Below are positions 31,855-51,597 of a DNA stretch of 54,516 nucleotides, piece by piece. The position numbers were made by a program, and so were the translations under genes. Location: positions 1 through 54,516 of the forward strand of contig JBDKVB010000036.1 in NCBI GenBank assembly GCA_039679385.1, read 5' to 3'. This stretch comes from Armatimonadia bacterium (GTDB lineage: Bacteria > Armatimonadota > Zipacnadia > Zipacnadales > JABUFB01). Each line of letters starts with the position of its first letter. The stretch's first letter is position 1. A model generated the notes under the pieces. It saw only the letters and a list, made by a program, of their open reading frames with translations, was not told the origin of the DNA and did no database searches.

Positions 31855-32514
31855 ATGGCTAAGGGCGTCGTCGGGAGCATCCAGCGGCTCATGCACTTCT
31901 TCCTGCCCAGGGAGGAAGAGTTCTTCGAGATCTTCGCCGAGATGGGCGACAAGGCAAAGGCTGCAGCAGTGCTGGTGCACCAGATGTTCGTAGACTACCC
32001 GGAGATCGGGAATGTGGTCGAAGAGATCGCCGTGCTTGAGCACGATGTCGATCACATCCGCCACGACTGCGTGCGGCGGCTCAACGAGACCTTCGTGACG
32101 CCGGTCATGTTCGACCGACAGGACATTTTCGATCTGGCCGACATCCTTGATGACGTGGTCGATTTCTGCCGCGCGGCTGTGGACCGTACAGCCCTGTACA
32201 AGGCCGAGAGGGTCCCACCCAATATCATCAGGATGGCCGAGACGCTTGTGGAGGCCACGGCGCTGCTCGCCGAGGTCTGCAACCGCCTCGAAGGGATCCG
32301 CGGCGAGGCACAGACGTATGTCGAGAAGATCAACAACCTGGAGAACCAGGCGGACGCCATGCTCAAGCAGGGCCTCGCAGACCTGTTCAGGGAAGAGAGG
32401 AACGCGGTCGAGATCCTCAAGTGGAAAGAGATCTACGACTACGTTGAGGAAGCTATCGATCACTGCGAGGACACGATCAACCTGATCGAGGCGTCTCTGG
32501 TCAAGAACTCCTAA
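31855..32514 (+). CDS. DUF47 (PhoU-like) phosphate transport accessory protein
   Basis: 219 residues from ATG 31855 with AGAGGAAG about 9 nt upstream. The protein is all-helical and matches the DUF47/TIGR00153 family, with LPREEEFFEIFAEMGDKAKAAAVLV at the N-terminus, the E-x-x-x-D-x-x-x-H metal-type pattern EEIAVLEHDVDHIRHD and YDYVEEAIDHCEDTINLIE at the end. These PhoU-like proteins are encoded beside PiT phosphate transporters, as here (55 nt upstream of one), and are thought to modulate them. Cytoplasmic or membrane-associated. Confidence 0.9.
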   Translation: MAKGVVGSIQRLMHFFLPREEEFFEIFAEMGDKAKAAAVLVHQMFVDYPEIGNVVEEIAVLEHDVDHIRHDCVRRLNETFVTPVMFDRQDIFDLADILDDVVDFCRAAVDRTALYKAERVPPNIIRMAETLVEATALLAEVCNRLEGIRGEAQTYVEKINNLENQADAMLKQGLADLFREERNAVEILKWKEIYDYVEEAIDHCEDTINLIEASLVKNS

Positions 32515-32568
32515 CGCAGGAGCTGAGGAACTGGCGCGGCGCGAGCACAGGAGCGCCGCGATTCACCT

Positions 32569-33579: not shown

Positions 33580-34482
33580 CTAGGACGCGGGGATCATCGC
33601 GCGGAGCAAAGCGAGGGTACCGAGACCGTAGTAGGTGTACTCCACATCCGGCACCGCATCGCGTGGGCAGGACGAGAAGCCACCACCAGGCCTGGCACAG
33701 GTGCGGGCAAAGCGTGCAAGCGCTGCGAGATCCACCGGCCCAACTGCGGCAAGGCCGATCAGTGCCAGGAACGCCGTGAAGCTCGACAGTAGGTCGCCCT
33801 CCGGTGCCGCGGCATGGGCTCGGAAGCCGCCGTCTTCCGAGGTCTGCATCGACACCAGGAACCGGGCCGCCGACGCAGCGCAGTCTTCCTCCAGTTCGCC
33901 TGCCATCGTCAGGACCGCAAGCCCCGCTGCTGTGGCATTCGTCTGCGCCGCGGTCTGATCCGCTCTCTCCGCAAAGCCGCCCTCAGGACGACGTAGTTGC
34001 TGCACTCCCCGGAGTACCTCCTCCCCCGCAGACCAACCATCTCCCAGCATCTCATGACACAGGGCAAGCAGGAAAGCCTGGTAGGCGCTCACTGACGCCT
34101 CCGGGTTGTCGTGCAGCGCGCCCTCCGCTTCAGTCAGGCAGGCGTACACAGACGGCGGTACCGGCAGCGGGTCACGCCCCGGTGACTGCAGCATCCGGCG
34201 GCAGTTCAGGTAGCTGAAGCACTCGACCAGGTCTCGTGGTGGTGGCTGTGCAGCGAGGAAGCCCGGGATGGCGCCCAAAGCCGGAGAGGCCGGGGCAGTC
34301 AGCACAAGCGTCCGCAGGGCGAAGTCGGTGTAGTACAGATCCTCGACGCCTGAGCGCCCGACGAAGCCGCCCGCAGGGCCCTGACGGCTTCCGACGTAGC
34401 TTGCCTGCGCCCTCAGGAACCCGTCGCCCAGCAAGGCAGTACCTGTGGCCAGCATCTCGTCCAGCAGATCGAGATAGCCCAT
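33580..34482 (-). CDS. Prenyltransferase/squalene-oxidase-repeat toroid without the zinc site
   Basis: 300 residues, no signal peptide. The repeats have the GGF core of the alpha-alpha toroid seen in protein prenyltransferase beta subunits: PAGGFVGRSG, PEGGFAERAD, EDGGFRAHAA and PGGGFSSCPR. In genuine farnesyl or geranylgeranyl transferases zinc is held by a D-x-C and a later His. Here the corresponding places read DLLSSF and DVEYTYYG, so the Cys and His are absent. It is therefore unlikely to be a zinc-dependent protein prenyltransferase; it could bind or shape an isoprenoid instead. Last gene of the minus-strand terpenoid operon, 11 nt after the DUF116-polyprenyl synthetase gene. Confidence 0.75.
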   Translation of the reverse strand: MGYLDLLDEMLATGTALLGDGFLRAQASYVGSRQGPAGGFVGRSGVEDLYYTDFALRTLVLTAPASPALGAIPGFLAAQPPPRDLVECFSYLNCRRMLQSPGRDPLPVPPSVYACLTEAEGALHDNPEASVSAYQAFLLALCHEMLGDGWSAGEEVLRGVQQLRRPEGGFAERADQTAAQTNATAAGLAVLTMAGELEEDCAASAARFLVSMQTSEDGGFRAHAAAPEGDLLSSFTAFLALIGLAAVGPVDLAALARFARTCARPGGGFSSCPRDAVPDVEYTYYGLGTLALLRAMIPAS

Positions 34483-34493
34483 GGAGGTTCGGC

Positions 34494-36242
34494 TCAGTCG
34501 GATACGAGCCGCACCTCGCGCAGGATGTTGCGGACGAGGAACTGGAAGAGCTCCCGGAGCCCCGGAGGTCCTATCTCTTGCGTAAGGTCCAGGGCACGTG
34601 TACGCAGGCCCCCGTAGAGCCGGTGGGCCTTCTCGAAGACCCCATGTTGATGGTAGAGGGTCCGGACCTGCGGCAGGACCGTGCTCCGGCTCCCGCTGGC
34701 ACGAGCTGCGGTCACCAGGTCGTCCAGGGCCTCTCCCGCACCGGCCTCAAGAGCAAAGGCACGCAGGATCGTGGGCCTGCGGGCCAGCACATCCTGGCCT
34801 CGGTGGCCCTTGTTCGCGTTGTCCTCTTCCCAGTCGGTGAGGTCGTTGAGCACCTGGAAACCCTCGCCGACGAAGGTGGCATACTGGCGCAGGAGGGTGT
34901 CCTCCACAGCGACCTGTGCCGCACGCAGGCCGGCGTAGAGCGCGACCTCGAAGGCCGGCGCCGTCTTCAAAGCCCCAATCTGCAGTGCATGGATGGGCCG
35001 CAACTGCGTGGAGGCTTGGCCGTTCCACATCAACTCTGCGCCCTGCCCGGAGGATAGCTGGAGATGGGCCTGCGCCAATCGGGCGAGGATGTCTGCGACG
35101 CAGCCAGCGCCCAGTTCGGGCCCTTGCGAGGCGATCAGACGATAGCCTAGGCCGATCAGGAAGTCGCCCACGTTGATGGCTGTCTCGACCCCGTAGGTCT
35201 GATGGATCGTCGGTTGGCCGTAGCGGTACGGATCGCGGTCCTCGATGTCGTCGTGGACCAGGGAGGCCTTGTGTATGGCCTCGAAGGCGACGGCGACGGT
35301 GCGGATGCCCGGTGGAAGGAGAGCTTCGGCGTCAGCGCCGGCCTCCAGGGCCTCGAAGCCTGAACGTGCGACGGCATAGGTCGCCAGGGTAATGAAGGGC
35401 CGCAGGCGCTTGCCGCCGCGCTGCAGGAAGTCACAGGCAATGCGCTGGGTAGCCTCCAGCAAGGGTGCTGACACCTCGTCGCCGGGAGGCGTCTGGTTGC
35501 AGGCGCCGAGCAGTGGGGTGAGGTGCTCCGGGGTGAAGACGGTCTGCGCCGCACGCAGCAGGGGAAGGTAGCTGCGCTCGATCAGCCTGCCCCCGGTGGC
35601 ATGGGTGCCGATCAGCTCGCCGAGAAGGTCGACCTCCGCCGTGGTATCCTGGCAGCCGTCGGTCAGCAGAGGAAGGGCCTGGTGAGGCACGCCCAGGTCG
35701 GCAATGCGCTCGAAGGACTTCTCCAGGGAGTCCAGGCAAGCCACACCAAGAATCGCGTCGGCCTCGCCCTCCATGACCTTCTCGACCACTGCCGAAGTGC
35801 CCTCGGCCACGATGACATGGTAGCCGAGGTCCTCCGCCCGCGCCTTGAGGTCCTGGATCACACAACCGCCGCAGCCGGCGCAGTGCAATCCTACGGAGTC
35901 GATGCTCGCCCGGCAGGTATGTCGGTTCTGCAGGCACTTGGGTAGTAGCAGAAGACGGCGCCCAAAGGGGACCGCCGAGAAGGCGCCCCACCAGAGGGCG
36001 TTGTCGAGGGCGACCATGGCGAACCCGAGATACTCGCGAGGAAGCCCCAGGTCACTGAGGATGGAAGCGGCGCCCTCCCGCAGCACTTCATCCCCCGGGA
36101 GAGCCGTATGCCCCAGGGAGTCGGCAAGGAAGGCGGCCCGGGCACGGATCAGCGCCCGGGTCGAACTGTCTGCGGGAACCTGCTTGATGTCGTCTCTGGC
36201 CTCGCCGGTTTCAGTCGGCGGGCGGCCGGTGAGTACACTCAT
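34494..36242 (-). CDS. DUF116-polyprenyl synthetase fusion
   Basis: 582 residues from ATG 36242. The N-terminal third (about 70-215) matches DUF116, with its ordered cysteines C103, C110, C121, C124, C127, then C169 and C197, including the CAGCGGC cluster and the VAEGTSAV turn; DUF116 is thought to bind a metal or FeS centre. The C-terminal part (about 250-582) is an all-helical trans-prenyltransferase: GGKRLRP at about 276, the first aspartate-rich motif DDIED at 331-335, and the second as NDLTD at 466-470, with Asn in place of the first Asp, plus the downstream basic KGHRGQD. It should elongate allylic diphosphates to a C15-C20 or longer chain. I know DUF116 as a separate protein, often beside radical SAM genes, so the fusion is striking. 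A radical SAM gene lies in the same operon. Confidence 0.85.
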   Translation of the reverse strand: MSVLTGRPPTETGEARDDIKQVPADSSTRALIRARAAFLADSLGHTALPGDEVLREGAASILSDLGLPREYLGFAMVALDNALWWGAFSAVPFGRRLLLLPKCLQNRHTCRASIDSVGLHCAGCGGCVIQDLKARAEDLGYHVIVAEGTSAVVEKVMEGEADAILGVACLDSLEKSFERIADLGVPHQALPLLTDGCQDTTAEVDLLGELIGTHATGGRLIERSYLPLLRAAQTVFTPEHLTPLLGACNQTPPGDEVSAPLLEATQRIACDFLQRGGKRLRPFITLATYAVARSGFEALEAGADAEALLPPGIRTVAVAFEAIHKASLVHDDIEDRDPYRYGQPTIHQTYGVETAINVGDFLIGLGYRLIASQGPELGAGCVADILARLAQAHLQLSSGQGAELMWNGQASTQLRPIHALQIGALKTAPAFEVALYAGLRAAQVAVEDTLLRQYATFVGEGFQVLNDLTDWEEDNANKGHRGQDVLARRPTILRAFALEAGAGEALDDLVTAARASGSRSTVLPQVRTLYHQHGVFEKAHRLYGGLRTRALDLTQEIGPPGLRELFQFLVRNILREVRLVSD

Positions 36243-36285: not shown

Positions 36286-37683
36286 TCAGTTGACGGCGCC
36301 GATGCAGTACAGGTTCTGGAATCCGCGCAAGAACAGCCGGTCACCGTCGAACACGGGTGAGCCCCGATAGGGCTCGATCTTGTTGCGGCCGACCTCCGAG
36401 TAGGTGCGGCCCGGAGTGACGACTACGGTTGTGCCATTGTCGCCAGCGACGAACAGGTGACCACCGGCGAAGGTCACGCTCGGGTAGCAGACCGCCCTGC
36501 CCAGACCCAGGTTCTGCTCATAGACAACCTCGCCGGTCGCCGCATCGATGCAACTGAACACGCCCACCTGGTTCACTGCATACAGGAGCCCCTCATGCAG
36601 GACCGGCGAAGCGTAGTAGCGATCTTTCTTTGGCTGAGTGTTCCACAGCTTCCTGCACACAACCTTGTTCTCCACGACAGCCTCGGGCAACTCGACAGCC
36701 TTGCCGCCGTTCTCGATGAAGTAGGCGATGCGGCCGTCGAGGGTGGGGCTCGCGTACTCCAGGCCGGCGATGCCCTTAGCGAGGACCACGCCGTCATCGA
36801 CCCGAAGTATCTCGCCCTTGGGCGTGACGATGACCTGGGTGCCACCGATCGCCGTCGGAAGGTGGGTACCCCAGCACGCCCCGGACCGGGTCTGCCACAG
36901 CCTTGCTCCGGTGCTCTTGTCCAGGGCGGTGAACTGGCTGATGTGCACGATCAGCTTGTCCCCGACCACCACAGGCGAAGCACTGTGCCCCCACATGTCC
37001 GTTGGCTTCTCGATGAACTTCGCCCACTGACGGTTGCCCTCCAGATCGTAGCAGGCGACGATGCCCGTGCCGAACACTACCCACACGTAGTGGCCGTCAC
37101 TGACCGGCGTGGCGGAGGAGTAGCCGTTGATGTCATGCCGCGGCGGCAGGATGTACCAGAGCTTCCGGTAAGGCTCGAGTTCGAGGCCGATGGCGGTCTG
37201 CCTGGCCTGAGCTGCCGCGAGCTTGGTCTTGAGCGCTTCGTCGTCAGGCTTGGACTGCAGACCGGCCTTCGCCTGATTCGCCTCGCGACTCGCCTTGTTG
37301 AACTCCCCTTCGAGGGCCTTCGCCTTGGCCTGGTCAGGGCCGATCTTGGCGAGGTCCTCGGGAGAGGCGATGTCCTCGTAGGTGTTCGTCTTCTGCCAGA
37401 GGATATGGCCATCGGTCGCCTCCAGGCAGACGAGTGTCGAGGGTTCAGCGCAGAGGAAGATCCTGTTGCCGACCAGAATCGGCGTAGCGTTGCCGGTGCC
37501 CGGGAGCGCCGTCTTCCATCTCACGTTCTGGTCCGGTCCCCACTGCAGAACGGGCGTCGCTGTGGGGTACCTGCCGGTGCCGTCGGTGCGCCAACCAACC
37601 GTCTCAGAGGCCAGGGCACTGGTGGCTGCGACCACCAGCACCGTAACGAGCATGATCCTGCGGGCATGGAACGCCAGGGACAT
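36286..37683 (-). CDS. Exported PQQ-like beta-propeller with a helical insertion
   Basis: 465 residues with AGGAGG just before ATG 37683 and a signal peptide (MSLAFHARRIMLVTVLVVAATSALASE). Blades of the PQQ/quinoprotein type recur, such as VCLEATDGHILWQK, VACYDLEGNRQW, TALDKSTGARLWQT and SCIDAATGEVVYEQ. Between early blades sits a long charged helical segment (about 105-170, PEDLAKIGPDQAKAKALEG...), unusual for the fold and probably a coiled-coil. There is no CxxCH heme motif and no evidence that PQQ is actually bound. An extracytoplasmic propeller inside a lipid-biosynthesis operon is odd; it might handle the product on the outer face of the membrane. Confidence 0.8.
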   Translation of the reverse strand: MSLAFHARRIMLVTVLVVAATSALASETVGWRTDGTGRYPTATPVLQWGPDQNVRWKTALPGTGNATPILVGNRIFLCAEPSTLVCLEATDGHILWQKTNTYEDIASPEDLAKIGPDQAKAKALEGEFNKASREANQAKAGLQSKPDDEALKTKLAAAQARQTAIGLELEPYRKLWYILPPRHDINGYSSATPVSDGHYVWVVFGTGIVACYDLEGNRQWAKFIEKPTDMWGHSASPVVVGDKLIVHISQFTALDKSTGARLWQTRSGACWGTHLPTAIGGTQVIVTPKGEILRVDDGVVLAKGIAGLEYASPTLDGRIAYFIENGGKAVELPEAVVENKVVCRKLWNTQPKKDRYYASPVLHEGLLYAVNQVGVFSCIDAATGEVVYEQNLGLGRAVCYPSVTFAGGHLFVAGDNGTTVVVTPGRTYSEVGRNKIEPYRGSPVFDGDRLFLRGFQNLYCIGAVN

Positions 37684-37749: not shown

Positions 37750-39513
37750 CTATCCGGCTCCGGTGGCAAGAGATCGACTGGCGCGAGCCAGCGCCTCGAC
37801 GGTCCACATGACCGGGTAAAGGGCTTCGCTGTACCACAGACTCGCGAAATACAGACCGATGGGCGCGGCGTTCGTCCAGGACCCTTCTTCGACCCGCGCT
37901 ACGAGCTGCTCTATGCCTCGTGACAGCGCCTCCGGAGCAGCCTGAGGCCACTGTGCAAGGGCGCTCACGGCCAGAGCGGTCTCCTCAACGGTGACAGGCA
38001 CACCGGCTTCGGCGCCCCATCCACCCTCCTCGCTTTGTGCAGCAAGGAGGTACTTCAGGCCCCGCTGCGCCTGCTCACCACCAGGACCAAGCTCGGCCAG
38101 CGCCATCAGAACCCGCGAGGTGGCGAGCACCGGGTTGCTGTGATCTGCGGTCCGCTGACTTCCAGACCACAGCGGGACCCAGGAACCGTCAGCCCGCTGC
38201 GTGCGCACCAGATAGGACAAGCCACGACGCATGCAGGTCGCAAGACGCTGGTCCTGACCGAGGGGATCGACGGCATGAAGCGCTCGCAGGGCATGGGCGG
38301 TGATGTCGGCGCAGCTCATGTCAAAGGGTAACTGACCCCAGCCGCGACAGAAGGTCGGCCACCCACCGTCGGCGTTCTGCAGGTCCATCAGCCACCGGGC
38401 ACCCTCGGCAATCCCCTTCGAGTTCGCGGTCCCGGCAAGGGCAAGCACGGCACCCGAGGTGTCATCGGCATCGGGAACGCTGCCGGACAGGTACGACCAG
38501 CCCCAGCCTCCCGCTGCTGCACCGGTGTATGGATGCACCGTGCCGCGCTGCTGACCGGCAAGCCATTGTCGGGACACTACCAGCGCCGCCGCAGCATCCT
38601 GAGCCGGCCCGTCCTCTGGAAGCACGGGCCTTGCCTGCTCGAGGGCGTTCACGGCCCCGCTCGTAACCCAGGTGGCGAGATGGGTGTCGATCGGCCAGCT
38701 CCCATCCTCGCGAAGACTGGTTCGCAGGAAGTGCAGACAACGAGACAGCACGGGATGTTCCGGACCAAGCGCGCCGACCAGGCCCATGGTGACAAAGGCG
38801 GTGAGCGGAGTGGCCTCCAGGTACCCGCCGCTTTCCGGCTGGATCCGCTCCAGGGTCCTCAGGACGCCCGGGGTAACCGCCGACCTCAGAAAGCGCCGGG
38901 AGCGACCGCTGCCCTTGTGATGGTGAACAGTGAGGCCGACGGCAATGAGCGCCGGAAGGGCATAGCTGACCACCTGCAACCGGAGCACGGGGTAAAGCGA
39001 CCGCGGCAAAGCCGCCATCTCGAAGGGCAAGTCCGGAACCTCACTCCAGGGCACCAGACCTGCAAGGGCGCAGTTCATGAGGATAGGCACCGCGAAGGTG
39101 CGATCAGCGCCGTAGGTCTTGCGGATCGCCGCGACCCGCTCCCCGGGTGTGGCACCGGCCCGGTGTGTTACGTAGGCCTCGGCCCGCTCATATGCGCTCT
39201 GACGGTCGGATTGTGCGTGACTCAGATGGAGCGCGGAAAGGGTGAGGAGAGTCGTGGAGAGGTTACTGGGGCTGTCGGGAGTATCGCCCCAGCCGCCGTC
39301 CTCGTTCTGGGTCCGGCAGAGCCAGTCCAGTCCTGCCGCGGTTCTCTCGCGGTCCTCGGGCATCGCGGCCAGTGACAGCGCACTGATTGCCGTCGCGGTT
39401 GCCAGGGCCGAAGAGGACAGATGGCCCTCCCAGTGACCCTCCGGCGAGCAAAGCGACAGCAGATGGTTCACTGCTGTCGCGAGGGCCTGCTGCAGACGAT
39501 CCGGGTGCATCAT
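37750..39513 (-). CDS. Class II terpene cyclase, squalene-hopene cyclase family
   Basis: 587 residues from ATG 39513, with GGAGGG 7 nt upstream and overlapping the radical SAM stop (ATGA). The catalytic acid motif DxDD is present as DADD at 348-351 (PDADDTSG). QW-type repeats stabilise the barrels: QNEDGGWG, REDGSWPIDTHLATWV, QNADGGWP, QRADGSWV and QSEEGGWG. These proton-initiated cyclases fold squalene or a linear polyprenyl compound into a polycyclic product at the membrane. The length is shorter than the usual 630-720 of SHC. No squalene synthase (HpnC/D/E) is in the window, so the substrate may be squalene made elsewhere or a polyprenyl product of the synthetase in this operon. Family certain, product unknown. 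Confidence 0.88.
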   Translation of the reverse strand: MMHPDRLQQALATAVNHLLSLCSPEGHWEGHLSSSALATATAISALSLAAMPEDRERTAAGLDWLCRTQNEDGGWGDTPDSPSNLSTTLLTLSALHLSHAQSDRQSAYERAEAYVTHRAGATPGERVAAIRKTYGADRTFAVPILMNCALAGLVPWSEVPDLPFEMAALPRSLYPVLRLQVVSYALPALIAVGLTVHHHKGSGRSRRFLRSAVTPGVLRTLERIQPESGGYLEATPLTAFVTMGLVGALGPEHPVLSRCLHFLRTSLREDGSWPIDTHLATWVTSGAVNALEQARPVLPEDGPAQDAAAALVVSRQWLAGQQRGTVHPYTGAAAGGWGWSYLSGSVPDADDTSGAVLALAGTANSKGIAEGARWLMDLQNADGGWPTFCRGWGQLPFDMSCADITAHALRALHAVDPLGQDQRLATCMRRGLSYLVRTQRADGSWVPLWSGSQRTADHSNPVLATSRVLMALAELGPGGEQAQRGLKYLLAAQSEEGGWGAEAGVPVTVEETALAVSALAQWPQAAPEALSRGIEQLVARVEEGSWTNAAPIGLYFASLWYSEALYPVMWTVEALARASRSLATGAG

Positions 39514-41030
39514 GCCGGCGCCCTCCGGCGGTGTCGGGCCAGATGACCCGTCCACAGAACGACCTGACCCTTGGCCAGGAGCTGGATCAGGAGGCGACGG
39601 CTCAGCGGCGCTCCGGCACCCTTCTGGTCGTCGAGGTAGATTCGCGGCGTCCACTTGAAGTTGAACCGGTAGCACTCTCGCACCAAGTCCCAGTGTAGCC
39701 GTGTCAGCACGGGCGGCGCAGTGCCGTCCAGAGGAGCGTAGATCACCGGGAAGAGGGTGATGGCCTCACCGCGGAAGCGCCGTACCCAGTCGAGGGTCTG
39801 CTGTACGTGCTCGGGTGTCTCGCCGGGAAGGCCGACAAGAAGGCTGACCATAGGCAGGAACCCCGCGCGACAGAGCCGTCGCAGTTGCTCCTCGCACACC
39901 TCGCCCCAGGTGTCCGGGCCAATGGCTCCCATCTTGGCGCGCCCGCCACTGGCCTGCAGCAGCTCTCCTGCGGCCGTCTCGACGCCCACGTTCACCCAGG
40001 GACGGCGCGTCACCTGGTCGCCCACCAGAAGGTCTCGCGCCTGACGAATCTCGCCGTCGGTCCATTGCGCGATGCTGGCGATGTTGGCGTGGTCGAGTTG
40101 CAGAAGCCGCACTGCCTTGAGCGCCCGGATCTGCTCCAGAAGGGCGAGAGCTGTCGCGGGTCTACAGTGAACGCCGCTGGCCCCGTAACGGAAGAAGTCC
40201 TCACTCAGAGCGGCGAGGGCGGTCTTCGCGGCGGCAAGGTTCGTCTCAACGTCGGCAAGAATCGTGTCCGTCGGGAGATGCCCCATGGGTGTCGTGGCGA
40301 TGGCGCAGAAGCCGCAGCCAAGACCACAGCCCCGGCTGATCTCCACCACTCCCATGGTCGTAGCGCCCCGTATGGGCGGAATCTGATCTACGGGGACGCC
40401 CTCACCGAGGGTCACAGCAGGCAGACTCTCCTGGGCCAGGAGCTTCGAGAAGACCTCGACCACGTTGCCCTCGGAGTAGCCCACGACGACATGATCGACT
40501 CCGGTCTCTGCAGGGGTGACGGAGGAAGGGGAAGAAGTGTCCTGCGCAAGCTGCCAGGCTCCCGGTCCGCCCAGGAGAACCCGGGCCTGCGGAGCACGGG
40601 CCTGCAAGTAGGCGCGAACCCCACTGAGCAGTTGGCGGAACATCGCCAGCGGGTAGATCTCGCCGCCTGCGATCCCGGCCATGGTGGAGCTGCTCATACC
40701 GAGGCCGTGCGGCTCGCCGGAGCTGATGCCGACCACGAGAGTTGCCGGGCCGATGGCCTGGTGGAGGTGTGCGTCGTCGACGACGACGATGTCACCGGGG
40801 TCGATGCCGCCGCGAACCAGGGCCGCCTCGACGCGGCGCAACCCCAGCGGGGCGACCACACACTGCCCCTCGGGATGTGCCGCCCGGGGCATCAGCAGGT
40901 GGTTCATGATCGCAGCCGGGGTCCGCGTCGTCTGGCTGGCCGCCGTCATCCCATCCAGCAGGACACGATAGTCTGCCATCAGGGTTCGGTCAGCGGTGAG
41001 GACGATCGGGTAGCCGTCGCGTCGTAACAC
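39510..41030 (-). CDS. Radical SAM enzyme with an N-terminal Rossmann-like domain
   Basis: 506 residues starting with GTG at 41030, directly after the ferredoxin stop (TGAGTG) with AGGAG 8 nt upstream. The radical SAM motif CxxxCxxC is C235-GLG-C239-GF-C242. The N-terminal 200 residues, with VVVDDAHLHQAI, ATLVVGISSG and RVLLGGPGAW, resemble the cobalamin-binding Rossmann domain of class B radical SAM enzymes, but I see no DxHxxG motif for a base-off histidine, so B12 binding is uncertain. It overlaps the cyclase gene by 4 nt. Its position argues for modification of the isoprenoid product or its precursor, as in radical SAM steps on hopanoids. Confidence 0.85.
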   Translation of the reverse strand: MLRRDGYPIVLTADRTLMADYRVLLDGMTAASQTTRTPAAIMNHLLMPRAAHPEGQCVVAPLGLRRVEAALVRGGIDPGDIVVVDDAHLHQAIGPATLVVGISSGEPHGLGMSSSTMAGIAGGEIYPLAMFRQLLSGVRAYLQARAPQARVLLGGPGAWQLAQDTSSPSSVTPAETGVDHVVVGYSEGNVVEVFSKLLAQESLPAVTLGEGVPVDQIPPIRGATTMGVVEISRGCGLGCGFCAIATTPMGHLPTDTILADVETNLAAAKTALAALSEDFFRYGASGVHCRPATALALLEQIRALKAVRLLQLDHANIASIAQWTDGEIRQARDLLVGDQVTRRPWVNVGVETAAGELLQASGGRAKMGAIGPDTWGEVCEEQLRRLCRAGFLPMVSLLVGLPGETPEHVQQTLDWVRRFRGEAITLFPVIYAPLDGTAPPVLTRLHWDLVRECYRFNFKWTPRIYLDDQKGAGAPLSRRLLIQLLAKGQVVLWTGHLARHRRRAPA

Positions 41031-41864
41031 TCAAGGACTCCTGCGTGCGCTTTCGTCAAGCTGTGCGATCAGGGCGTCGATCTCGTCGAGGACCGGCTGG
41101 CTGCCCGGCGCCTGCGGGGCCTGCGGCAAGGCACGCCCGCACTCCGGACAGGTCTTCTGCCCGGCCAACTCCGGCGGCAGCTCACCCTCCGCCCCCGAAC
41201 ACAGAGGACAAGTCGCGCCAGTCCGCGAGTAGTACATCCGCCGGGCTTCGGCGTCAAGGGTCACGAACTTGCCCGGAGCGCCGCAGATCGCCGGGTCGTC
41301 CGTGTACAGAGGGAAGACGATCGCACCGGCGGGACAGATGCGTGAGCAAGCCGGGCAGCCCGGCTTGCAGTTGTCGGGATTGGTCACCGTCACTTGACCG
41401 GCGCCGTCCTGCGAGTAGACACCGAACAGGCAGAACTGGAGGCAATGGCCGCAGTTCCGGCAGCGCTCCAGGTCGATGACCGGGTACCAGCGCTCCGCGA
41501 GGCGACCCTCCAGGACAGTGGTCTCACTAGCGACTGCCGAGTCCCCGGCAACCGCACCAATCGCCGCCAGGGCCCGCTCCACTGCGGACTCGTCGGCGAG
41601 GTTCACGCAGCCGTCCTCCGGCACCGAGATTCCGCGATGGTGGAGAAGCGCCCTGAGCGCCCGAGGGTGCAGGCACGAGAAGAAGGCTGCGATGGGCGAC
41701 AGCCGCTGCAGCTCTGGCCACACCGCGCTGCCTTCGGGTAGGTGATAGGGATGTGGGATGACAGTGGTCTGAGCCCCTGACTGCCGACACTGCGCGAGCA
41801 GTCCCGCGACGGCTTCAGCGTCTTCAGGGAAGGGCTGTGCGATGACGACCTGCGCGTTCCTCAT
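41031..41864 (-). CDS. Ferredoxin-like protein with C-terminal zinc-ribbon pairs
   Basis: 277 residues from ATG 41864 (MRNAQVVIAQPF); the frame opens further upstream, but only over the promoter region. Residues about 1-120 look alpha/beta and have no recognised family. Then come two 4Fe-4S motifs, CRNCGHCLQFC and CKPGCPACSRICP, followed by two Cys pairs of a zinc-ribbon or rubredoxin type, CPLC and CPEC, separated by about 20 residues. It is the first gene of the minus-strand operon and abuts the radical SAM gene, so a role as electron donor to that enzyme is a reasonable inference. Confidence 0.75.
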   Translation of the reverse strand: MRNAQVVIAQPFPEDAEAVAGLLAQCRQSGAQTTVIPHPYHLPEGSAVWPELQRLSPIAAFFSCLHPRALRALLHHRGISVPEDGCVNLADESAVERALAAIGAVAGDSAVASETTVLEGRLAERWYPVIDLERCRNCGHCLQFCLFGVYSQDGAGQVTVTNPDNCKPGCPACSRICPAGAIVFPLYTDDPAICGAPGKFVTLDAEARRMYYSRTGATCPLCSGAEGELPPELAGQKTCPECGRALPQAPQAPGSQPVLDEIDALIAQLDESARRSP

Positions 41865-41985: not shown

Positions 41986-43590
41986 ATGTCTGAATCGCAG
42001 GCAAGTCCGCCCGAAGGCCCGCTCACCTCGAAACCTCAGCCCGGCCTTGCTTCTCCTTCCACGGGAGGTCCTCAGCCTTCGCGACGCGATCCCGTGGCAC
42101 TACTGATCACCTGGGGTATCCCCGGATTCTTTGCGATCGTCGGTGCCTTGCTGCTCGTTGTCTGGCTCCGAGGAGCGCCCAATCCGGCGGACGTCGCCCC
42201 TCGCACTCCCACTTCAGATCGCAGTGCCGGGGCGACCGGCGTTGTTGCCCGACCGGCTGCCGGACCTGGTGGTGCGGTGACTCCCGGGGCGATGCCGGGT
42301 GCACCCTTGGGGACGGGTCCCGTAGTTGGCGCGCCTGCGGGTAGCGCTTCAGGTCTGCCGGGCGCAGCTTCAGCGACCGCAGCCGCCGGCTCGGGCGCTC
42401 CGATAGCCTCCGTGCGGGGGTTCTGGCCCGGCTTCCGCGGACCGAATCGCGACAACCTCAGTCCGGACTCCACGTCACTGTTGACGAGTTGGGGTGGAGG
42501 ACCGACTCGACTGTGGTCGGTCAGCATGGGAGAGGGCTACGCCGGAGCGGCTGTTGCAGATAGCCGGGTCTACGTGCTGGACTATGACCAGACCGCACGG
42601 GCCGATAAGCTGCGCTGCCTGTCCCTGGCCAACGGGCAGGAGCTGTGGTCGCAAAGCTACCCCGTGGACGTGAAGCGCAACCACGGGATGTCGCGCACAG
42701 TGCCCGCGCTGTACAAGCAGTATGTCGTGACCCTGGGACCGAAGTGCCACGTGATGTGTTGCGACGCCAAGACCGGGGCGGTGAAGTGGAGGATTGACCT
42801 CGTGGCGCAGTACGGGGCGACGGTGCCTCCCTGGTACGCCGGGCAGTGCCCGCTGATCGACAACGGGCGAGTGATCCTGGCCCCGGGCGGCAAGGCGCTC
42901 ATGATCGCCGTCGACATCGCAACCGGCAAGGTGGCCTGGCAGGCCCCCAACCCACGCGGCTGGAAGATGACACACACCTCGATCGTCCCCGTGTCGGTTG
43001 CCGGGAAGAAGATGTATGTGTACTGTGGTTCCGGAGGCGTGGCGGGCGTTGCAGCCGACAAGGGAACCCTCCTCTGGGACACGACCGCCTGGGTCGTGAG
43101 CACTGCGACGGTTCCGAGCCCCGTGCCGATTGGTGACGGCAGGATCTTCCTCTGCGGTGGGTACAACTCCGGTGCGATGATGCTGCGGCTCGTGCCCTCG
43201 GGTGGCAAGTTCACGGCCGAGCAGGTATTCCGGCTCAAACCCAACGTTTTCGGCTCCGACCAGCAGACCCCGATTCTGTACAGGGGGCACCTGTACGGCG
43301 TCATCCCTGGCGGGCAACTGGCGTGTCTGAGCCTCGATGGGAAGCAGGTCTGGGCCAGTGGAACGGATCGCTTCGGCCTGGGGCCCTATATGATCGCGGG
43401 CGGGAACATATACGTGCTCGACGACAAGGGCGAACTCTCACTGGTGTCCGCGAGTCCGAGTGGATATAAGAGACTGGCGCGGGCGAAGGTCCTCAACGGT
43501 CCGGATGCCTGGGGACCGATGGCCCTGGCTGGCGGTCGGCTGATCGTGAGAGACCTGACCACCATGGCATGTCTGCAAGTCGGGAGGTAA
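41986..43590 (+). CDS. Membrane-anchored PQQ-like beta-propeller protein
   Basis: 534 residues from ATG 41986, with GAGGA 7 nt upstream; an ATG at 41932 lies over the promoter. A short cytoplasmic N-terminus is followed by one transmembrane helix (about 45-62, LITWGIPGFFAIVGALLLVVWL), then an Ala/Gly/Pro-rich linker (about 65-155) and a C-terminal PQQ/quinoprotein-type propeller (about 160-534; blades such as CLSLANGQELWSQ, CDAKTGAVKWRI and AVDIATGKVAWQA). The propeller therefore faces outward. There is no CxxCH heme motif. First gene of an eight-gene unit. Whether it binds a cofactor or is a scaffold cannot be told. Confidence 0.82.
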   Translation: MSESQASPPEGPLTSKPQPGLASPSTGGPQPSRRDPVALLITWGIPGFFAIVGALLLVVWLRGAPNPADVAPRTPTSDRSAGATGVVARPAAGPGGAVTPGAMPGAPLGTGPVVGAPAGSASGLPGAASATAAAGSGAPIASVRGFWPGFRGPNRDNLSPDSTSLLTSWGGGPTRLWSVSMGEGYAGAAVADSRVYVLDYDQTARADKLRCLSLANGQELWSQSYPVDVKRNHGMSRTVPALYKQYVVTLGPKCHVMCCDAKTGAVKWRIDLVAQYGATVPPWYAGQCPLIDNGRVILAPGGKALMIAVDIATGKVAWQAPNPRGWKMTHTSIVPVSVAGKKMYVYCGSGGVAGVAADKGTLLWDTTAWVVSTATVPSPVPIGDGRIFLCGGYNSGAMMLRLVPSGGKFTAEQVFRLKPNVFGSDQQTPILYRGHLYGVIPGGQLACLSLDGKQVWASGTDRFGLGPYMIAGGNIYVLDDKGELSLVSASPSGYKRLARAKVLNGPDAWGPMALAGGRLIVRDLTTMACLQVGR

Positions 43591-43592
43591 CG

Positions 43593-44606
43593 ATGGCCGA
43601 GACGGTGCCGCCGAGGCGCCCTGGAGGTCGTGGAGCTGGATGGGCCACTGCCGGTCTGGCCCTGGTGGTCGTGGCTGCCGGTCTGCTGGTGTATCAGCAT
43701 CTGCACCAGGGGCGGCAGGTCTCCACGCAGGCCGTCCAGCCACAGCAGACCATCGACCAGACGCTGGAGACGCTGCGGCAGGTCGATCCGGCGCTGGTCA
43801 AGTACCGCGAAGCCCGCACGGTGCAGACAGGCTTCCAGACGCCTCGCGGGATTGCCTTGAGCAGATCAGGCGAACTCTACGTAGTGGGTGACAGGGCCCT
43901 GCGGGTTTTCGAGGCTGACGGCGTCGGCACCACGGGAACCCAACTGGGTGACGAGCCGACCTGCGTGGCAGTGGACGAGGCAGTGATGGTGGCCCTTGGC
44001 TACCGCGGGAGTGTGGAGATCCGTGATGACGGTGGGGCTGTGCAGGCCCACTGGCAGGTGGCCGGGAAGAGCCCCTATGTGACCTGCGTTGCGCTCTCCG
44101 GCGAGCAAGTGTGGGTGGCCGACGCCGGTGATCGCGTAGTGCTGCGCTATGATCGCACCGGGAAGCTTCTGGGACGTCTCGGTGAGAAGGACCCCGCGAA
44201 GAAGGTACCGGGGCTGTTCTTGCCCAGTCCTCACCTGGACGTGGTGCCGCTGGATCAGGGGCGGGTTCTGGTCAACAACACAGGCCGCCACCTGGTGGAA
44301 ACCTACACGGCCCAGGGAGAGTTGAAGTCAGCATGGGGACGCTACGGGCCGGAGATTGATGGCTTCCCCGGGTGCTGCAACCCGACGGATCTCGCACTGC
44401 TGCCCGACGGGAAAGTGGTGGCCAGTGACAAGGGATTGCCGCGGGTGAAGGTGTACAATCAGCAGGGAGCGTTACAGGCGGTCGTCGCGACACCGGCACA
44501 GTTGTCCCGCGACGCCTCTGCGCTGGACCTTGCGGTAAGCGCCGACGGCACAGTCTACGTTCTGGATGGCCCGGCGGCGCTGGTGAGAGTGTTCGTCCCT
44601 AAGTGA
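43593..44606 (+). CDS. Membrane-anchored NHL-repeat propeller protein
   Basis: 337 residues from ATG 43593, two bases after the previous stop and with GGGAGGT just upstream. An Arg-rich cytoplasmic N-terminus leads into one transmembrane helix (about 22-38). The rest is an NHL-type propeller: TPRGIALSRSGELYVVG, VWVADAGDRVVLRYDRTGKLLG, HLVETYTAQGELKSAWG, CNPTDLALLPDGKVVASDKG and LAVSADGTVYVLDG. NHL propellers usually mediate binding. The location after the PQQ-like protein and before FeS proteins suggests a structural part of the same complex. Confidence 0.82.
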   Translation: MAETVPPRRPGGRGAGWATAGLALVVVAAGLLVYQHLHQGRQVSTQAVQPQQTIDQTLETLRQVDPALVKYREARTVQTGFQTPRGIALSRSGELYVVGDRALRVFEADGVGTTGTQLGDEPTCVAVDEAVMVALGYRGSVEIRDDGGAVQAHWQVAGKSPYVTCVALSGEQVWVADAGDRVVLRYDRTGKLLGRLGEKDPAKKVPGLFLPSPHLDVVPLDQGRVLVNNTGRHLVETYTAQGELKSAWGRYGPEIDGFPGCCNPTDLALLPDGKVVASDKGLPRVKVYNQQGALQAVVATPAQLSRDASALDLAVSADGTVYVLDGPAALVRVFVPK

Positions 44607-44629
44607 TGCAGCGAGGATGAGAGGGCGAA

Positions 44630-44842
44630 ATGGGACCCACAGACAAAGAGAATCGGCGGCAGTTCCTCGCCGGGCTTGGTCGCGGCCTCCTGGCTTGCGG
44701 GCTCGGACTGGGAGTGACCGCCCTGGTGGCTCGTGGAGGCAAAGACTGCCTTCGCACCGGGGGCTGTGAAGGCTGTGCGCTGATCGGCAAGTGCGACCTT
44801 AGCGAGGCGCAGGGCTACCGCGACCGCGCACAGAGGAGGTGA
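44630..44842 (+). CDS. Small Tat-signal protein with four clustered cysteines
   Basis: 70 residues. The N-terminus NRRQFLAGLGRG followed by a hydrophobic stretch is a twin-arginine signal, implying export in folded form with a cofactor. The short exported tail holds C-x5-C-x2-C-x5-C (C40 to C57 region: DCLRTGGCEGCALIGKC), enough to hold one FeS cluster or a metal. I do not recognise the family. Small Cys-rich Tat proteins of this type occur beside NapH/NosR-like operons. Its stop overlaps the ribosome site of the ferredoxin gene (AGGAGGTGA), so translation of the two is coupled. Confidence 0.65.
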   Translation: MGPTDKENRRQFLAGLGRGLLACGLGLGVTALVARGGKDCLRTGGCEGCALIGKCDLSEAQGYRDRAQRR

Positions 44843-44847
44843 GGCGG

Positions 44848-45450
44848 ATGTCTGAGGACGGCAAGCTCAAGCGGCCCGAGCAGCGGATCAGTCGGCGCCA
44901 GATTCTGGCCGAGTGCCTGCGCGGTGCCGGGGTGCTGGTGATGGGCGGTGCCCTGGGGTCGCTGGTCACCCGGGGGCATGCGGACAACACGGTATGGCAG
45001 ATCGATCCGAGCAAGTGCGTACAGTGCGGCAAGTGTGCCACCGACTGCGTCCTGAACCCCTCGGCGGTGAAGTGCGTCCACCAGTACCGCGTGTGTGGCT
45101 ACTGCGAGCTTTGTTTCGGCTACTTCGTGGACCAGCGTGCCAATGACGAGGAGCGAGCGGAGAACCAGCGCTGCCCGACGAACGCCATCCGGCGCACCTT
45201 CGTCGAGGACCCGTACTTCCAGTATGACATCGACGAGCTCAAGTGCATCGGGTGCGGGATCTGTGTGAAGGGCTGCAAGACCTTCGGAAATGGTTCCCTG
45301 GTCTTGCAGGTACGGCATGACCGCTGCCTGAACTGCAATGAGTGCAACATCGCTCAGAACTGTCCCGCGAACGCTTTCGTGAGAGTTCCCGCCCAGACGC
45401 CCTATCTTCTGCGCACAGAGCAAGAGGAAGGTCCGGGCGCCAAGCAATGA
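44848..45450 (+). CDS. Tat-exported polyferredoxin (NapG/NrfC-like)
   Basis: 200 residues from ATG 44848, with AGGAGG 8 nt upstream; GTG 44839 is possible but lies inside the ribosome site. The N-terminus SRRQILAECLRG plus a hydrophobic segment is a Tat signal. The mature protein has CVQCGKCATDC, a spaced CGYCELC pair, CIGCGICVKGC and CLNCNECNIAQNCP, together enough for three to four 4Fe-4S clusters, as in NapG, NrfC or DmsB-type electron carriers. It should sit on the outer side of the membrane and exchange electrons with the membrane FeS protein encoded next, with which it overlaps by 4 nt (ATGA). Confidence 0.85.
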   Translation: MSEDGKLKRPEQRISRRQILAECLRGAGVLVMGGALGSLVTRGHADNTVWQIDPSKCVQCGKCATDCVLNPSAVKCVHQYRVCGYCELCFGYFVDQRANDEERAENQRCPTNAIRRTFVEDPYFQYDIDELKCIGCGICVKGCKTFGNGSLVLQVRHDRCLNCNECNIAQNCPANAFVRVPAQTPYLLRTEQEEGPGAKQ

Positions 45451-46832
45451 ACTGCGACCGCTTCACCAACCGAACTGAGGGGAGAGGGCCGCGTCTGTTC
45501 TCGGGGTCTGGGCTTCGCACCTGGACCCTGGTCGCGTGCGTCTTGGTGACGGAGGGTGTGGGAGTAGCGCTGGCTGCCGAGAACTTCCCGCCGCCGGAGT
45601 TCACGACGGGCTACCAGTTCCCGAAGGCGACGGAGCCCGGCCCCAGGGATGCGAGCTTATCGCTGGTGGATGCGGCGGTACTGCTGACGGCGCTATCGTT
45701 GGCGGCGTACTTCGCTTTGCGCCGACGGTCTCGCCGGGAGCTGGCGATTCTGTCGGTGTTCTGCCTGTTGTACCTGGGCTTCTACCGGCATGGCTGCGTC
45801 TGTGCCGTCGGCTCCTTTCAGAATGTCGCGCTTGCGGTTGCCGACCCGGGCTATGTGTTGCCTGTCGTGGTGGGCGCGTTCTTTGTGCTGCCCTTGCTGT
45901 TCGCGCTGTTCTTCGGGCGGGTGTTTTGCTCGGCAGTGTGCCCGCTGGGTCAGGCGCAGGAGGTTGTGCTGCTGAGGGCTGTGAAGGTGCCGCGGTGGGT
46001 CGACCAGGCCCTCGGTGTCCTTCCCTTCCTGTACCTGGGTGTCGCGGTGCTGTATGCCGCCCTGGGGAGTGCCTTTGTGGTCTGCCGGTATGACCCCTTC
46101 GTGCTGTTCTTCCGCCTCGGCGGGAACTTGGAGATGCTGATCTTCGGGGTCGCGGTGCTGCTCCTGGCGACGGTGGTGGGCCGTCCGTACTGCCGATTCC
46201 TGTGCCCCTACGGGGCGCTGCTGCGACTGATCGCGCCCTTCGCGAGGTGGCGGGTCCGCACCACTCCCACGGAGTGCGTGAACTGTCACCTGTGTGCGGA
46301 CGCCTGCCCTTACGGGGCGATTCAGCCGCCGAACGTTACCGACGCGCGGATCGGTCGGCTGGAAGGTCGCAGCCGCTTGGCCTGGTTGGTGGCAGCCTTT
46401 CCGCTGATCCTGGCCGCCGGAGGGTTCCTCGGGTGGCAGAGCGCGCCAGTCCTGGCGAAGCTCGACCCGACGATCAGCCTGGCCAACCGCGTGTGGCTGG
46501 AGGAGCACGGTAGGGTGAAAGGCAAGACTGAGGCGAGTGAGGCCTTCGCCACCCAGGGCACACCCAGCGCAGACCTGTACCGGGAGGCGGCCAAGATCCG
46601 CAAGCGGTTCGATGGTGGCTCCCTGCTCCTGGGTGTTTGGGTCGGCCTGGTGATTGTCCTGAGGATGATCTCGCTGTCGGTGCGACGCCGACGAGAGGCG
46701 TACCAGGTGGACCCGGGGGCCTGCGTGGCCTGCGGTCGTTGCTTTTCGGCCTGTCCCGTGGGCCGGTCCGTGATAGCCGAAGCCGAGGGCGCGAGCATCT
46801 CTGCGCTCACCCCCGGTGAGGAGGGGCGTTGA
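45447..46832 (+). CDS. NapH/NosR-like membrane 4Fe-4S protein
   Basis: 461 residues starting at ATG 45447. A first hydrophobic segment (about 25-46) is followed by five or more transmembrane helices. NosR/NapH-type cysteine signatures lie at the helix ends: HGCVCAVGSFQN, GRVFCSAVCPLGQAQE and GRPYCRFLCPYGALLRL. Then come ferredoxin-type motifs CVNCHLCADACPYGA in the middle and CVACGRCFSACPVG at the C-terminus. NosR's N-terminal FMN domain is absent. Proteins of this group carry electrons between quinol or cytoplasmic carriers and the periplasm. Here it sits between an exported ferredoxin and cytoplasmic Nuo-like genes, so it is the natural membrane relay of the operon. Confidence 0.87.
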   Translation: MNCDRFTNRTEGRGPRLFSGSGLRTWTLVACVLVTEGVGVALAAENFPPPEFTTGYQFPKATEPGPRDASLSLVDAAVLLTALSLAAYFALRRRSRRELAILSVFCLLYLGFYRHGCVCAVGSFQNVALAVADPGYVLPVVVGAFFVLPLLFALFFGRVFCSAVCPLGQAQEVVLLRAVKVPRWVDQALGVLPFLYLGVAVLYAALGSAFVVCRYDPFVLFFRLGGNLEMLIFGVAVLLLATVVGRPYCRFLCPYGALLRLIAPFARWRVRTTPTECVNCHLCADACPYGAIQPPNVTDARIGRLEGRSRLAWLVAAFPLILAAGGFLGWQSAPVLAKLDPTISLANRVWLEEHGRVKGKTEASEAFATQGTPSADLYREAAKIRKRFDGGSLLLGVWVGLVIVLRMISLSVRRRREAYQVDPGACVACGRCFSACPVGRSVIAEAEGASISALTPGEEGR

Positions 46833-49021
46833 TGGCCGAATTGCCCACTGAGTCGACCGCACCGGTCAAACGTGACCGCACGAAACTGTACTACCGGACC
46901 GCGGTGACCGTCGCCTGCGTCGCGGCGGTCTTCTGCCTGGTCGTCCTGGTGCTGCTGGTGGTGAATGCCGTCCAGGCCCGCTCTGCCGACCCCTCGAAAC
47001 CGGCACAAATCGAGATGATGAAGGCCGACCTGGCCAAGCAGCCCACGAACCAGAAGCTGCGCGACGACATCCGCAAACTCGACCAGGATATCCGTTGGTC
47101 CTACTACATCACTCGTCTCCGCGCGATTCAGGGCGCGTATCTGCTTCTGGGCGGCGTCGTGGTCCTGCTGGTGTCGCTGCATTTCGTGCTCAAGCTGCGC
47201 ACACGGCTGCCCGTGCCGACGGAGGTAAGCGGCCTCAAGGTCTGGCTTGAGGCGGCCGTGGCGCGTCGAACGGTGATTCTCCTTGGCGTAGTGCTCGCGT
47301 CGGTCTTGCTGGTAATGGCTGTGCTGGGGAGGCATGATCCCTCCTCGGAGTACGCGAAGACGTCGGTGAAGGACGTCCTGCCTCCGCAGCCGGGACCGAT
47401 GGAAGTCCCGTCGATGGTTGCCGGGCAGCCTACACCTGTGGGACAGCCGAACCTGCAGTCACCACTCTCGCCTCTGGCAGCCGCCGGGAGTCCGGGACTC
47501 GCCGGACCGCAAGGTCCGGCAGGCCCTCCAGGACCCACGGGACCAGCAGGTGAGCGTGGTCCTGCCGGTGAGCAGGGACGCCAGGGAGAGCCGGGACCGG
47601 CCGGTCCGGCAGGAACTGCGGGTTTCCCTGGTCGGCCCGGCGGCTCTAGCCGCCCTGGTGCCACCGGCGAGTCTGCGGGCGAGGGAGGACGGACCGGCAG
47701 ACAGGGGATGGGAGGCCCAGGCAGCTCCGGCTTCCAGGGATCAGGAACGCCCGGATTCCCGGGTGGGCCGCAAAGGCCCGGACTGCCGGGAACGCAAGGT
47801 GGCGCTCCCGCGGTAGGCCAGGGATCTCCTGACCTGCTGGCCAACTGGCCCGTCTTCCGAGGCTACATGCCCGGCCGGGTGTCGACAGACCGGTTCCCCG
47901 TGCAGTGGGACGCCGGTAGTGGACAGGGCGTCCTCTGGAAGGCTGCGGTCCCGCTGCCGGGCAAGGGGTCTCCTGTGGCCTGGAAGGACCGCGTATACCT
48001 CAGCGGCGCCAATGACAAGCAGCGCGAGGTGTATGCCTTCGATGTGGCAACCGGCAAGCTGGTATGGAAGCAGGCGGTGGTACTCAACGAGAGCAAGTCG
48101 CAGCCGGCTCCCGAGGTCAATGAGGAGACCGGGTATGCCGCATCGACCATGACCACGGACGGCAAGAACGTCGTGGCGATGTTTGCCAACGGTGATGTCG
48201 CAGCCTTCGACCTGACCGGCAAGCAGGTCTGGTCTCGCTCCTTCGGTCCTCTGGATAATATCTACGGGCACGCCTCCTCGCCGATCCTCTATCGTAACCT
48301 GGTCTTGCTGCAGCTCGATCAGGGCGGGGACCCCGACGGTGGGCTGTCCGGGCTGCTGGCCCTGGACGTTGCCACCGGGAAGACGCTGTGGCGGACGCCG
48401 CGGCCGGTTCCCAACTCCTGGTCGACTCCCATCGTTGCCTTCACGGGCCGGCGCTTCGAGATCCTCACGATGGCCAGCCCCTTTGTCATCTCCTATGATC
48501 CGGGCACGGGCAAGGAACTGTGGAGGACGATGTGTCTCAACGGCGATGTGGCGCCTTCTCCCGCCTTCGGGGGCGGTCTCGTCCTGGTCGCGCAGGATGG
48601 TTCCGGACTCTTCGCGATCCGTCCTCCGGAGCCGAATACTGGTGACAAGGGCGAAATCGTGTGGCAAGCAGGCGATGGGCTACCGGACATCTGCAGCCCG
48701 GCCGCCAACGACGAGGTTGTGATCCTCGCCGCCAGCGGAGGGCTCGTGACCTGCTATGAGACGGCCACCGGCAAGAAGCTGTGGGAGCATGACCTGGGCA
48801 CCTCGGTCAACGCCTCGCCGGTGATCGCCGGGAAGCTGGTGTACCTGACCGACACCGAGGGCGTCACGCACATCTTCGAGGCCGGACCGGAGTTCAAAGC
48901 GATCGGCGTGGGCAAGTTCGGTGAGCCGGTGTACACGACGGCAGCTTTCGCCGCGGGGAAGGTCTTTGTCCGAGGCACCAAGAACCTGTTCTGCGTGGGA
49001 GCGAAACCTGCCAACGGATGA
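46832..49021 (+). CDS. Membrane protein with collagen-like stalk and PQQ-like propeller
   Basis: 729 residues from ATG 46832, sharing one base with the previous stop (TGATG) and with AGGAGG upstream. Three transmembrane helices lie near residues 22-48, 90-110 and 147-166. A collagen-like segment starts at residue 219 with 17 uninterrupted G-x-y triplets rich in Pro and Ala (GSPGLAGPQGPAGPPG...), then an irregular Gly-rich part to about 333. The C-terminus (about 335-729) is a PQQ/quinoprotein-type propeller (AFDVATGKLVWKQ, AFDLTGKQVWSR, ALDVATGKTLWRT, CYETATGKKLWEH). A trimerising collagen stalk carrying a propeller away from the membrane is a plausible reading. No heme motif is present. Its stop overlaps the next start (ATGA). 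Confidence 0.83.
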   Translation: MAELPTESTAPVKRDRTKLYYRTAVTVACVAAVFCLVVLVLLVVNAVQARSADPSKPAQIEMMKADLAKQPTNQKLRDDIRKLDQDIRWSYYITRLRAIQGAYLLLGGVVVLLVSLHFVLKLRTRLPVPTEVSGLKVWLEAAVARRTVILLGVVLASVLLVMAVLGRHDPSSEYAKTSVKDVLPPQPGPMEVPSMVAGQPTPVGQPNLQSPLSPLAAAGSPGLAGPQGPAGPPGPTGPAGERGPAGEQGRQGEPGPAGPAGTAGFPGRPGGSSRPGATGESAGEGGRTGRQGMGGPGSSGFQGSGTPGFPGGPQRPGLPGTQGGAPAVGQGSPDLLANWPVFRGYMPGRVSTDRFPVQWDAGSGQGVLWKAAVPLPGKGSPVAWKDRVYLSGANDKQREVYAFDVATGKLVWKQAVVLNESKSQPAPEVNEETGYAASTMTTDGKNVVAMFANGDVAAFDLTGKQVWSRSFGPLDNIYGHASSPILYRNLVLLQLDQGGDPDGGLSGLLALDVATGKTLWRTPRPVPNSWSTPIVAFTGRRFEILTMASPFVISYDPGTGKELWRTMCLNGDVAPSPAFGGGLVLVAQDGSGLFAIRPPEPNTGDKGEIVWQAGDGLPDICSPAANDEVVILAASGGLVTCYETATGKKLWEHDLGTSVNASPVIAGKLVYLTDTEGVTHIFEAGPEFKAIGVGKFGEPVYTTAAFAAGKVFVRGTKNLFCVGAKPANG

Positions 49022-51558: not shown

Positions 51559-51597
51559 CCGCAGGCCCGCAGGGGCTCTGCAACGAGAGATGCTGCC

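Follow-up and report, generated by a model that had tools for sequence, protein, structure and literature searches.

A fusion of DUF116 with a polyprenyl synthase in a conserved bacterial operon with a probable role in squalene-independent terpenoid synthesis

A 54,516-nucleotide stretch of DNA from an Armatimonadia bacterium (here called the window) carries a gene in which DUF116 is fused to a polyprenyl synthase, and this gene stands in an operon that, judged from its sequences, probably makes a cyclised terpenoid independently of squalene. The five-gene pathway setting is common to five bacterial phyla and apparently undescribed; a literature search, with most subscription journals outside its scope, found no published description of the operon, and PMC8692599, considered as one, shares words only. 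The fusion itself is already known because Makarova et al. (2015; PMC5898192) mention a DUF116-polyprenyl synthetase fusion, Psta_0175 of Pirellula staleyi, in one sentence, so that the novelty implied by an earlier, sequence-only reading of the window does not hold. Psta_0175, whose orthology with the window fusion is assumed here, has the same two-domain architecture, and the fold and role considered below for DUF116 are those predicted for the family in the same paper, namely a flavodoxin-like fold and electron transfer. Its operon, cyclase, radical SAM protein, chain length, and relation to squalene are not treated there. The features of the window that matter for the argument are the following (all on the minus strand except the last).

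33580..34482 (-): TOR, a 300-residue single-barrel alpha-alpha toroid protein, prenyltransferase-like (PF00432; Pfam E 2.7e-12), 11 nt downstream of the fusion and kept beside it
34494..36242 (-): DUF116-polyprenyl synthase fusion gene, 582 residues (Pfam matches to both domains, architecture common to five phyla, structure model)
34512..35567 (-): polyprenyl synthase domain of the fusion, residues 226-577 (Pfam, VIA-align Z 32 to solved synthases, motif table)
35616..36050 (-): DUF116 domain of the fusion, residues 65-209 (Pfam, genome search, 34-sequence alignment, domain model with pLDDT 90)
36286..37683 (-): PQQ_2/BamB-like propeller protein, 465 residues (Pfam E 2.3e-23), between cyclase and fusion
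37750..39513 (-): SHC, a divergent squalene-cyclase-like class II cyclase of 587 residues (Pfam E 1.8e-34 and 2.8e-27; DxDD)
39510..41030 (-): rSAM, a 506-residue radical SAM protein (Pfam E 3e-08; CxxxCxxC), overlapping the start of SHC by 4 nt
41031..41864 (-): FER, with two 4Fe-4S ferredoxin motifs (Fer4_10, E 2.6e-06; conserved Cys), start inferred from orthologues, no gap to rSAM
41986..53160 (+): redox module, divergent from FER (Pfam, repeated occurrence next to the operon in other phyla)

The fusion is read from an ATG at 36242 to a stop at 34494 with no internal stops. It starts 43 nt after the preceding gene and ends 11 nt ahead of the TOR gene; an alternative upstream GTG start would give 616 residues, but the orthologues align with the ATG instead. 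DUF116 (PF01976) makes up the N-terminal ~210 residues and is matched by Pfam at residues 65-209 (E 3e-32, 111.7 bits against a gathering cut-off of 25 bits), and polyprenyl_synt (PF00348) at residues 267-511 (E 1.1e-38, 133.4 bits, cut-off 27). An AlphaFold2 model of the whole protein, built on an alignment of 21 orthologues, has a pLDDT of 85 and a pTM of 0.85. Residues 226-577 of this model superpose by VIA-align on entire solved farnesyl and geranylgeranyl diphosphate synthases (best Z 32.4, with 320 residues aligned at 2.6 A), and the all-alpha isoprenoid synthase fold is thus present in the synthase half. The fusion lacks a transmembrane segment, with a maximum 19-residue mean hydropathy of 1.16 versus 3.04-3.12 in three archaeal DUF116 proteins.

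The fusion was found in 17 of 60 relatives of this genome as a single uninterrupted frame with 40-59% identity. DUF116 is present in 24 of 291 Armatimonadota genomes, each with one match over the cut-off, always within a fused open frame 522-709 codons long, and no separate DUF116 above the cut-off was seen among the 291. A genome scan added fusions in Acidobacteriota, Verrucomicrobiota, Lentisphaerota, and Bacteroidota. For the Verrucomicrobiota, DUF116 was found in 73 of 338 genomes; by a hand count from the listing, about 56 of the 78 matches lie in fusion-length frames, and the 15 loci that were opened held 11 fusions and four separate genes. Plasmid records yielded ordinary synthases only, none spanning 80% of the query. 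In a tree of 92 synthases, a quick one with some long branches and with comparison synthases picked by similarity, all 47 fused synthases fall on one side of a branch (SH-aLRT 99), for which a single fusion event followed by spread would be the simplest reading. That two genes were joined by an assembly or gene-calling artefact has a negligible probability, as a single open frame recurs in dozens of independent assemblies and the synthase half is monophyletic. These fusions in independent assemblies likewise exclude the objection, raised with the sequence-only reading, that close relatives might carry separate genes and the window an assembly error.

Three Anaerolineae genomes do have a separate DUF116 gene immediately ahead of a synthase gene, but of different ancestry. 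In the tree the paired synthases group with other synthases and not with the fused clade, and at the fifth position ahead of the first aspartate motif they have F in place of A; the idea that the fusion descends from such an adjacent pair was considered and is unsupported. The Anaerolineae genes are thus best regarded as a second, independent pairing, which favours a link between DUF116 and the synthase beyond this operon. At one Anaerolineae locus (L149:5601-8223, minus strand) an apparent type-2 isopentenyl diphosphate isomerase gene, a separate DUF116, and a polyprenyl synthase whose motif is of the short-chain type stand together. Other Anaerolineae loci (L160-L166, e.g., L160:68-1654) encode proteins of 520-590 residues that carry a DUF116-like domain at the C-terminus; at L160 the N-terminal portion resembles, by eye, a lipoate-protein ligase. 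Similarly, DUF116 is N-terminal in a long open reading frame at L155:1-2013 (minus strand) that by eye resembles a PEP-utilising enzyme. As DUF116 is also joined to other Anaerolineae enzymes, its role may exceed this pathway. Two polyprenyl synthase genes were also seen in tandem in archaeal MAGs (L071:1063-3108; L084:7776-9672; L088:7241-9292).

Apart from the first residue of the second aspartate motif, the synthase half keeps its catalytic motifs. The first aspartate motif, DDxxD, reads DDIED at residues 331-335, and the GKRLRP, GQ, and KT motifs are all present. The second motif reads NDLTD (residues 466-470), with D467 and D470 kept. The sequence-only reading had singled out this motif as a possible cause of altered chain length or activity. 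The motif is real, but it is a weak marker of altered activity, given DDLTD in the nearest orthologue, L102, DD in other fusions, and the conservation of every other catalytic motif. Most members of the Armatimonadota main clade have NDxxD, L102 and L132 (DDLRE) being exceptions, and according to the motif table the fusions outside this clade have DD at the start of the second motif. Because it varies in this way, even within close orthologues, NDLTD says little on chain length.

The residues ahead of the first motif are the better guide. With an aromatic residue at the fourth or fifth position before it, elongation ends at C15 or C20, whereas the CrtE variant M87A, with Ala at the fifth position, makes a C25 product (PMC7261888). 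The fusion has A326 at the fifth and S327 at the fourth position ahead of DDIED; the motif table shows the same A/S in all fusions, and the aromatic residue of FPP and type-I GGPP synthases is absent from every one of them. Because of this A/S pair and as the motif holds no insertion, the synthase is not of the FPP or the type-I or type-II GGPP type. Chain length is therefore better read from S327 and A326, from which we infer a product of C20 or longer, with C25 or longer likely. Medium- and long-chain trans-isoprenyl diphosphate synthases (PF00348; e.g., octaprenyl diphosphate synthase) share with the fusion the aspartate motifs, GKRxRP, GQ, KT, the fold, and the small residues before the first motif, whereas the fusion differs in its N-terminal DUF116, in NDxxD within the Armatimonadota main clade, and in forming a clade of its own. 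The genome encodes two more synthases, whose fifth and fourth positions are A/S in one case and W/T in the other, so that housekeeping isoprenoid needs appear to be covered.

On the minus strand of the window the genes run in the order FER, rSAM, SHC, PQQ_2 propeller, fusion, TOR. The radical SAM gene that the sequence-only reading placed in the operon is indeed there, on the same strand and three genes upstream of the fusion. The order FER-rSAM-SHC-(PQQ)-fusion-TOR is typical of the Armatimonadota main clade: FER, rSAM, and SHC were found in all 13 re-scanned loci and TOR in 12, while the propeller is confined to part of the Armatimonadota (9 of the 13 main-clade loci). Another order, FER-rSAM-fusion-TOR-SHC with all five genes together, is found in 12 of 18 Verrucomicrobiota fusion loci, and also in L023 (Acidobacteriota), L025 (Bacteroidota), and L118 and L128 (Armatimonadota). 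When the fusion is unlinked, the partners persist elsewhere in the genome, as all 13 tested genomes outside the Armatimonadota main clade have both a cyclase of the operon type (45-60% identity) and an rSAM orthologue of full length (39-95% identity). In the three Anaerolineae genomes where DUF116 and synthase are encoded separately, no such cyclase and only partial rSAM matches were seen. A CobW-like GTPase gene and a GcvH-like gene adjoin the operon at L118:12821-15640 and in L190 and L191, with a NifS/IscS-like gene next in L118.

The CxxxCxxC motif of rSAM is conserved in 18 orthologues. The window protein matches TIGR04013 only weakly (62 bits, cut-off 251) and has no match to a Pfam B12-binding domain. 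This weak likeness is common to the rSAM proteins of the Armatimonadota main clade, which have about 500 residues; elsewhere (e.g., L023:3775-4974) they have 395 residues and SPASM-type nearest models. As the other four genes are homologous, the two types, which follow lineage, are read here as a replacement of one pathway enzyme.

SHC shares both cyclase Pfam domains and DxDD with squalene-hopene and other class II terpene cyclases; aligned to A. acidocaldarius SHC, the window protein reads PDADDT, and among 24 orthologues at least 95% keep DxDD. It would thus be conceivable that the operon is an ordinary hopanoid cluster in which the synthase feeds a squalene precursor and the cyclase makes hopene, as is also suggested by the presence of squalene/phytoene synthase (PF00494) in some fusion genomes. 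We consider this very improbable. Against the squalene-hopene cyclase model TIGR01507, SHC scores 105.8 bits and does not reach the equivalog cut-off of 431.1, and undoubted cyclases in two Armatimonadota relatives give E-values of 1e-122 to 1e-136 versus 5.6e-21 for the protein here. The synthase, moreover, has no aromatic stop residue as found in FPP synthases. Finally, PF00494 was not found in 27 of the 36 carriers tested, many of whose genomes are incomplete MAGs: it was missing from 16 of 24 Armatimonadota fusion genomes, including the 96.6%-complete genome studied here, and 11 of the 12 full-operon Verrucomicrobiota genomes lacked it as well. In control genomes the search did detect PF00494 (7 of 14). 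Because the remaining eight Armatimonadota genomes and several scattered-gene genomes, Verrucomicrobiota among them, do have PF00494, as does one of the 12 full-operon Verrucomicrobiota, squalene may be available in some carriers, although PF00494 covers phytoene synthases too.

An SHC-family enzyme that does without squalene has a precedent in Bacillus, where the tetraprenyl-beta-curcumene cyclase pathway (YtpB/SqhC) acts on a non-squalene terpene from a dedicated long-chain synthase, YtpB being an intermediate class IB enzyme. That pathway differs in lacking DUF116, rSAM, FER, and TOR, and a YtpB-type enzyme was not seen in the operon here. It is named in PMC7839719.

In the pathway that we propose, the synthase of the fusion would make a medium- or long-chain all-trans polyprenyl diphosphate. 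The SHC-like cyclase would protonate and cyclise this regular polyprenyl chain, or an alcohol derived from it, in place of squalene, with TOR as a putative chain-binding accessory to the cyclase. The radical SAM protein, with electrons from FER, would modify the chain or the cyclised product. DUF116 may be flavodoxin-like in fold, bind an Fe-S cluster, and, as a redox relay or dock, tie chain synthesis to FER and rSAM. Taken jointly, this explanation, in which the fusion product is a soluble two-domain enzyme at the start of a conserved terpenoid pathway, has in our estimate about an even chance of being right. If it is, bacteria of at least five phyla have in common a terpenoid pathway with a radical SAM step, in which a regular polyprenyl chain is cyclised and squalene plays no part. 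The product would then represent a new class of polycyclic membrane lipid and might be an unrecognised origin of cyclic terpenoid biomarkers, and the so far uncharacterised DUF116 would gain a first testable function.

The evidence on DUF116 comes from its cysteines and its predicted fold. Seven cysteines (C103, C110, C121, C124, C127, C169, and C197), including a CxxCxxC motif, are invariant in an alignment of 34 fused and separate DUF116 sequences, archaeal ones included, and would fit a metal or Fe-S site, in line with the cysteine-rich, probably metal-binding domain of the sequence-only reading. Archaeal DUF116 (PF01976, COG1852, arCOG02078; e.g., MMP0162) is homologous and has the same seven cysteines; it is, however, separate and membrane-anchored. 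Where separate archaeal and Anaerolineae DUF116 have PGG, the fused form has AEG. Since a whole-fusion fold search gave synthase matches only, which swamped DUF116, the domain was modelled separately. The resulting model (pLDDT 90) has an alpha/beta fold behind three helices and, by its secondary structure, places all seven cysteines in loops following strands 1, 3, and 4. A solved relative was found neither by sequence, at E up to 10, nor by Foldseek with the domain model at E <= 0.001. VIA-align scored a designed Rossmann protein at 8.5 and the others at no more than 7.2, matches at the level of a common arrangement that would agree with the flavodoxin-like prediction and show no relationship.

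A role of DUF116 as a redox relay or docking domain is our tentative choice, held at somewhat less than even confidence. A link to the radical SAM step, which the sequence-only reading had suggested, is plausible because the operon contains the rSAM gene and because, in other phyla, genomes with the fusion have one even where the two genes lie apart. The occurrence of two rSAM types in two lineages speaks against one conserved contact between DUF116 and rSAM, the Anaerolineae pair without such an rSAM and the attachment of DUF116 to other enzymes speak against an exclusive rSAM role, and the separately encoded FER could already supply the electrons, which counts against a relay. Alternatively, as the sequence-only reading first proposed, DUF116 might sense redox state or act through its Fe-S site to turn chain elongation on or off, with rSAM merely in the same pathway. 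Such a sensor would agree with the invariance of the seven cysteines in every fused and separate DUF116, and with a DUF116-synthase pairing that arose on two independent occasions, in one case apart from the rSAM and cyclase set; yet we hold it to be rather unlikely, given the steady genomic co-occurrence with rSAM, and with FER in nearly all clustered loci, which a pathway part fits at least equally well. To our knowledge, no synthase of the PF00348 family is redox-gated through such a domain. It is also unlikely, and a little more so, that DUF116 serves only for scaffolding or dimerisation, its cysteines binding a structural metal such as zinc. A flavodoxin-like fold with no significant solved relative and the fusion or adjacency of DUF116 to several unrelated enzymes would suit a scaffold, but the seven invariant cysteines with CxxCxxC are against it, as is the repeated association with Fe-S and redox genes, seen here and also reported for archaeal DUF116 (PMC5898192).

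Redox genes are indeed found next to the operon. The redox module comprises a PQQ_2 propeller, an NHL propeller, a 4Fe-4S protein, a NapH-like Fe-S membrane protein, a second PQQ_2 propeller, a NuoE-NuoF fusion, and a Fer2/FAD oxidoreductase. Such a module often stands beside the operon: in both Armatimonadota and Verrucomicrobiota, homologues of the propeller, 4Fe-4S, and NapH-like proteins are its neighbours, and they also lie next to the unlinked cyclase of a Bacteroidota MAG. This neighbourhood was noted at L197, L198, L199, L195, L185, L188, L190, L184, and L220; in L197 and L198, the module homologues follow SHC in one run with NuoEF. The relation between the module and the terpenoid operon, as it appears from gene order, is an association only. 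A bolder reading, which we regard as rather doubtful, is that a conserved, undescribed locus of at least ten genes in at least three phyla couples squalene-independent polycyclic terpenoid synthesis to a membrane redox chain of NuoEF-like and NapH-like proteins, a 4Fe-4S protein, and PQQ/NHL propellers; the terpenoid would be a lipid made for this chain or redox-active in it, and DUF116 would be the Fe-S link.

Two further features were observed in the window. At 24888-28742 (minus strand), a 1284-residue protein with a likely signal peptide shows by eye several SdrD-like repeats. At 31714-33573 (plus strand), a DUF47/PhoU_div gene precedes a gene for a PHO4 phosphate transporter, the two forming an ordinary pair of the Pit type.
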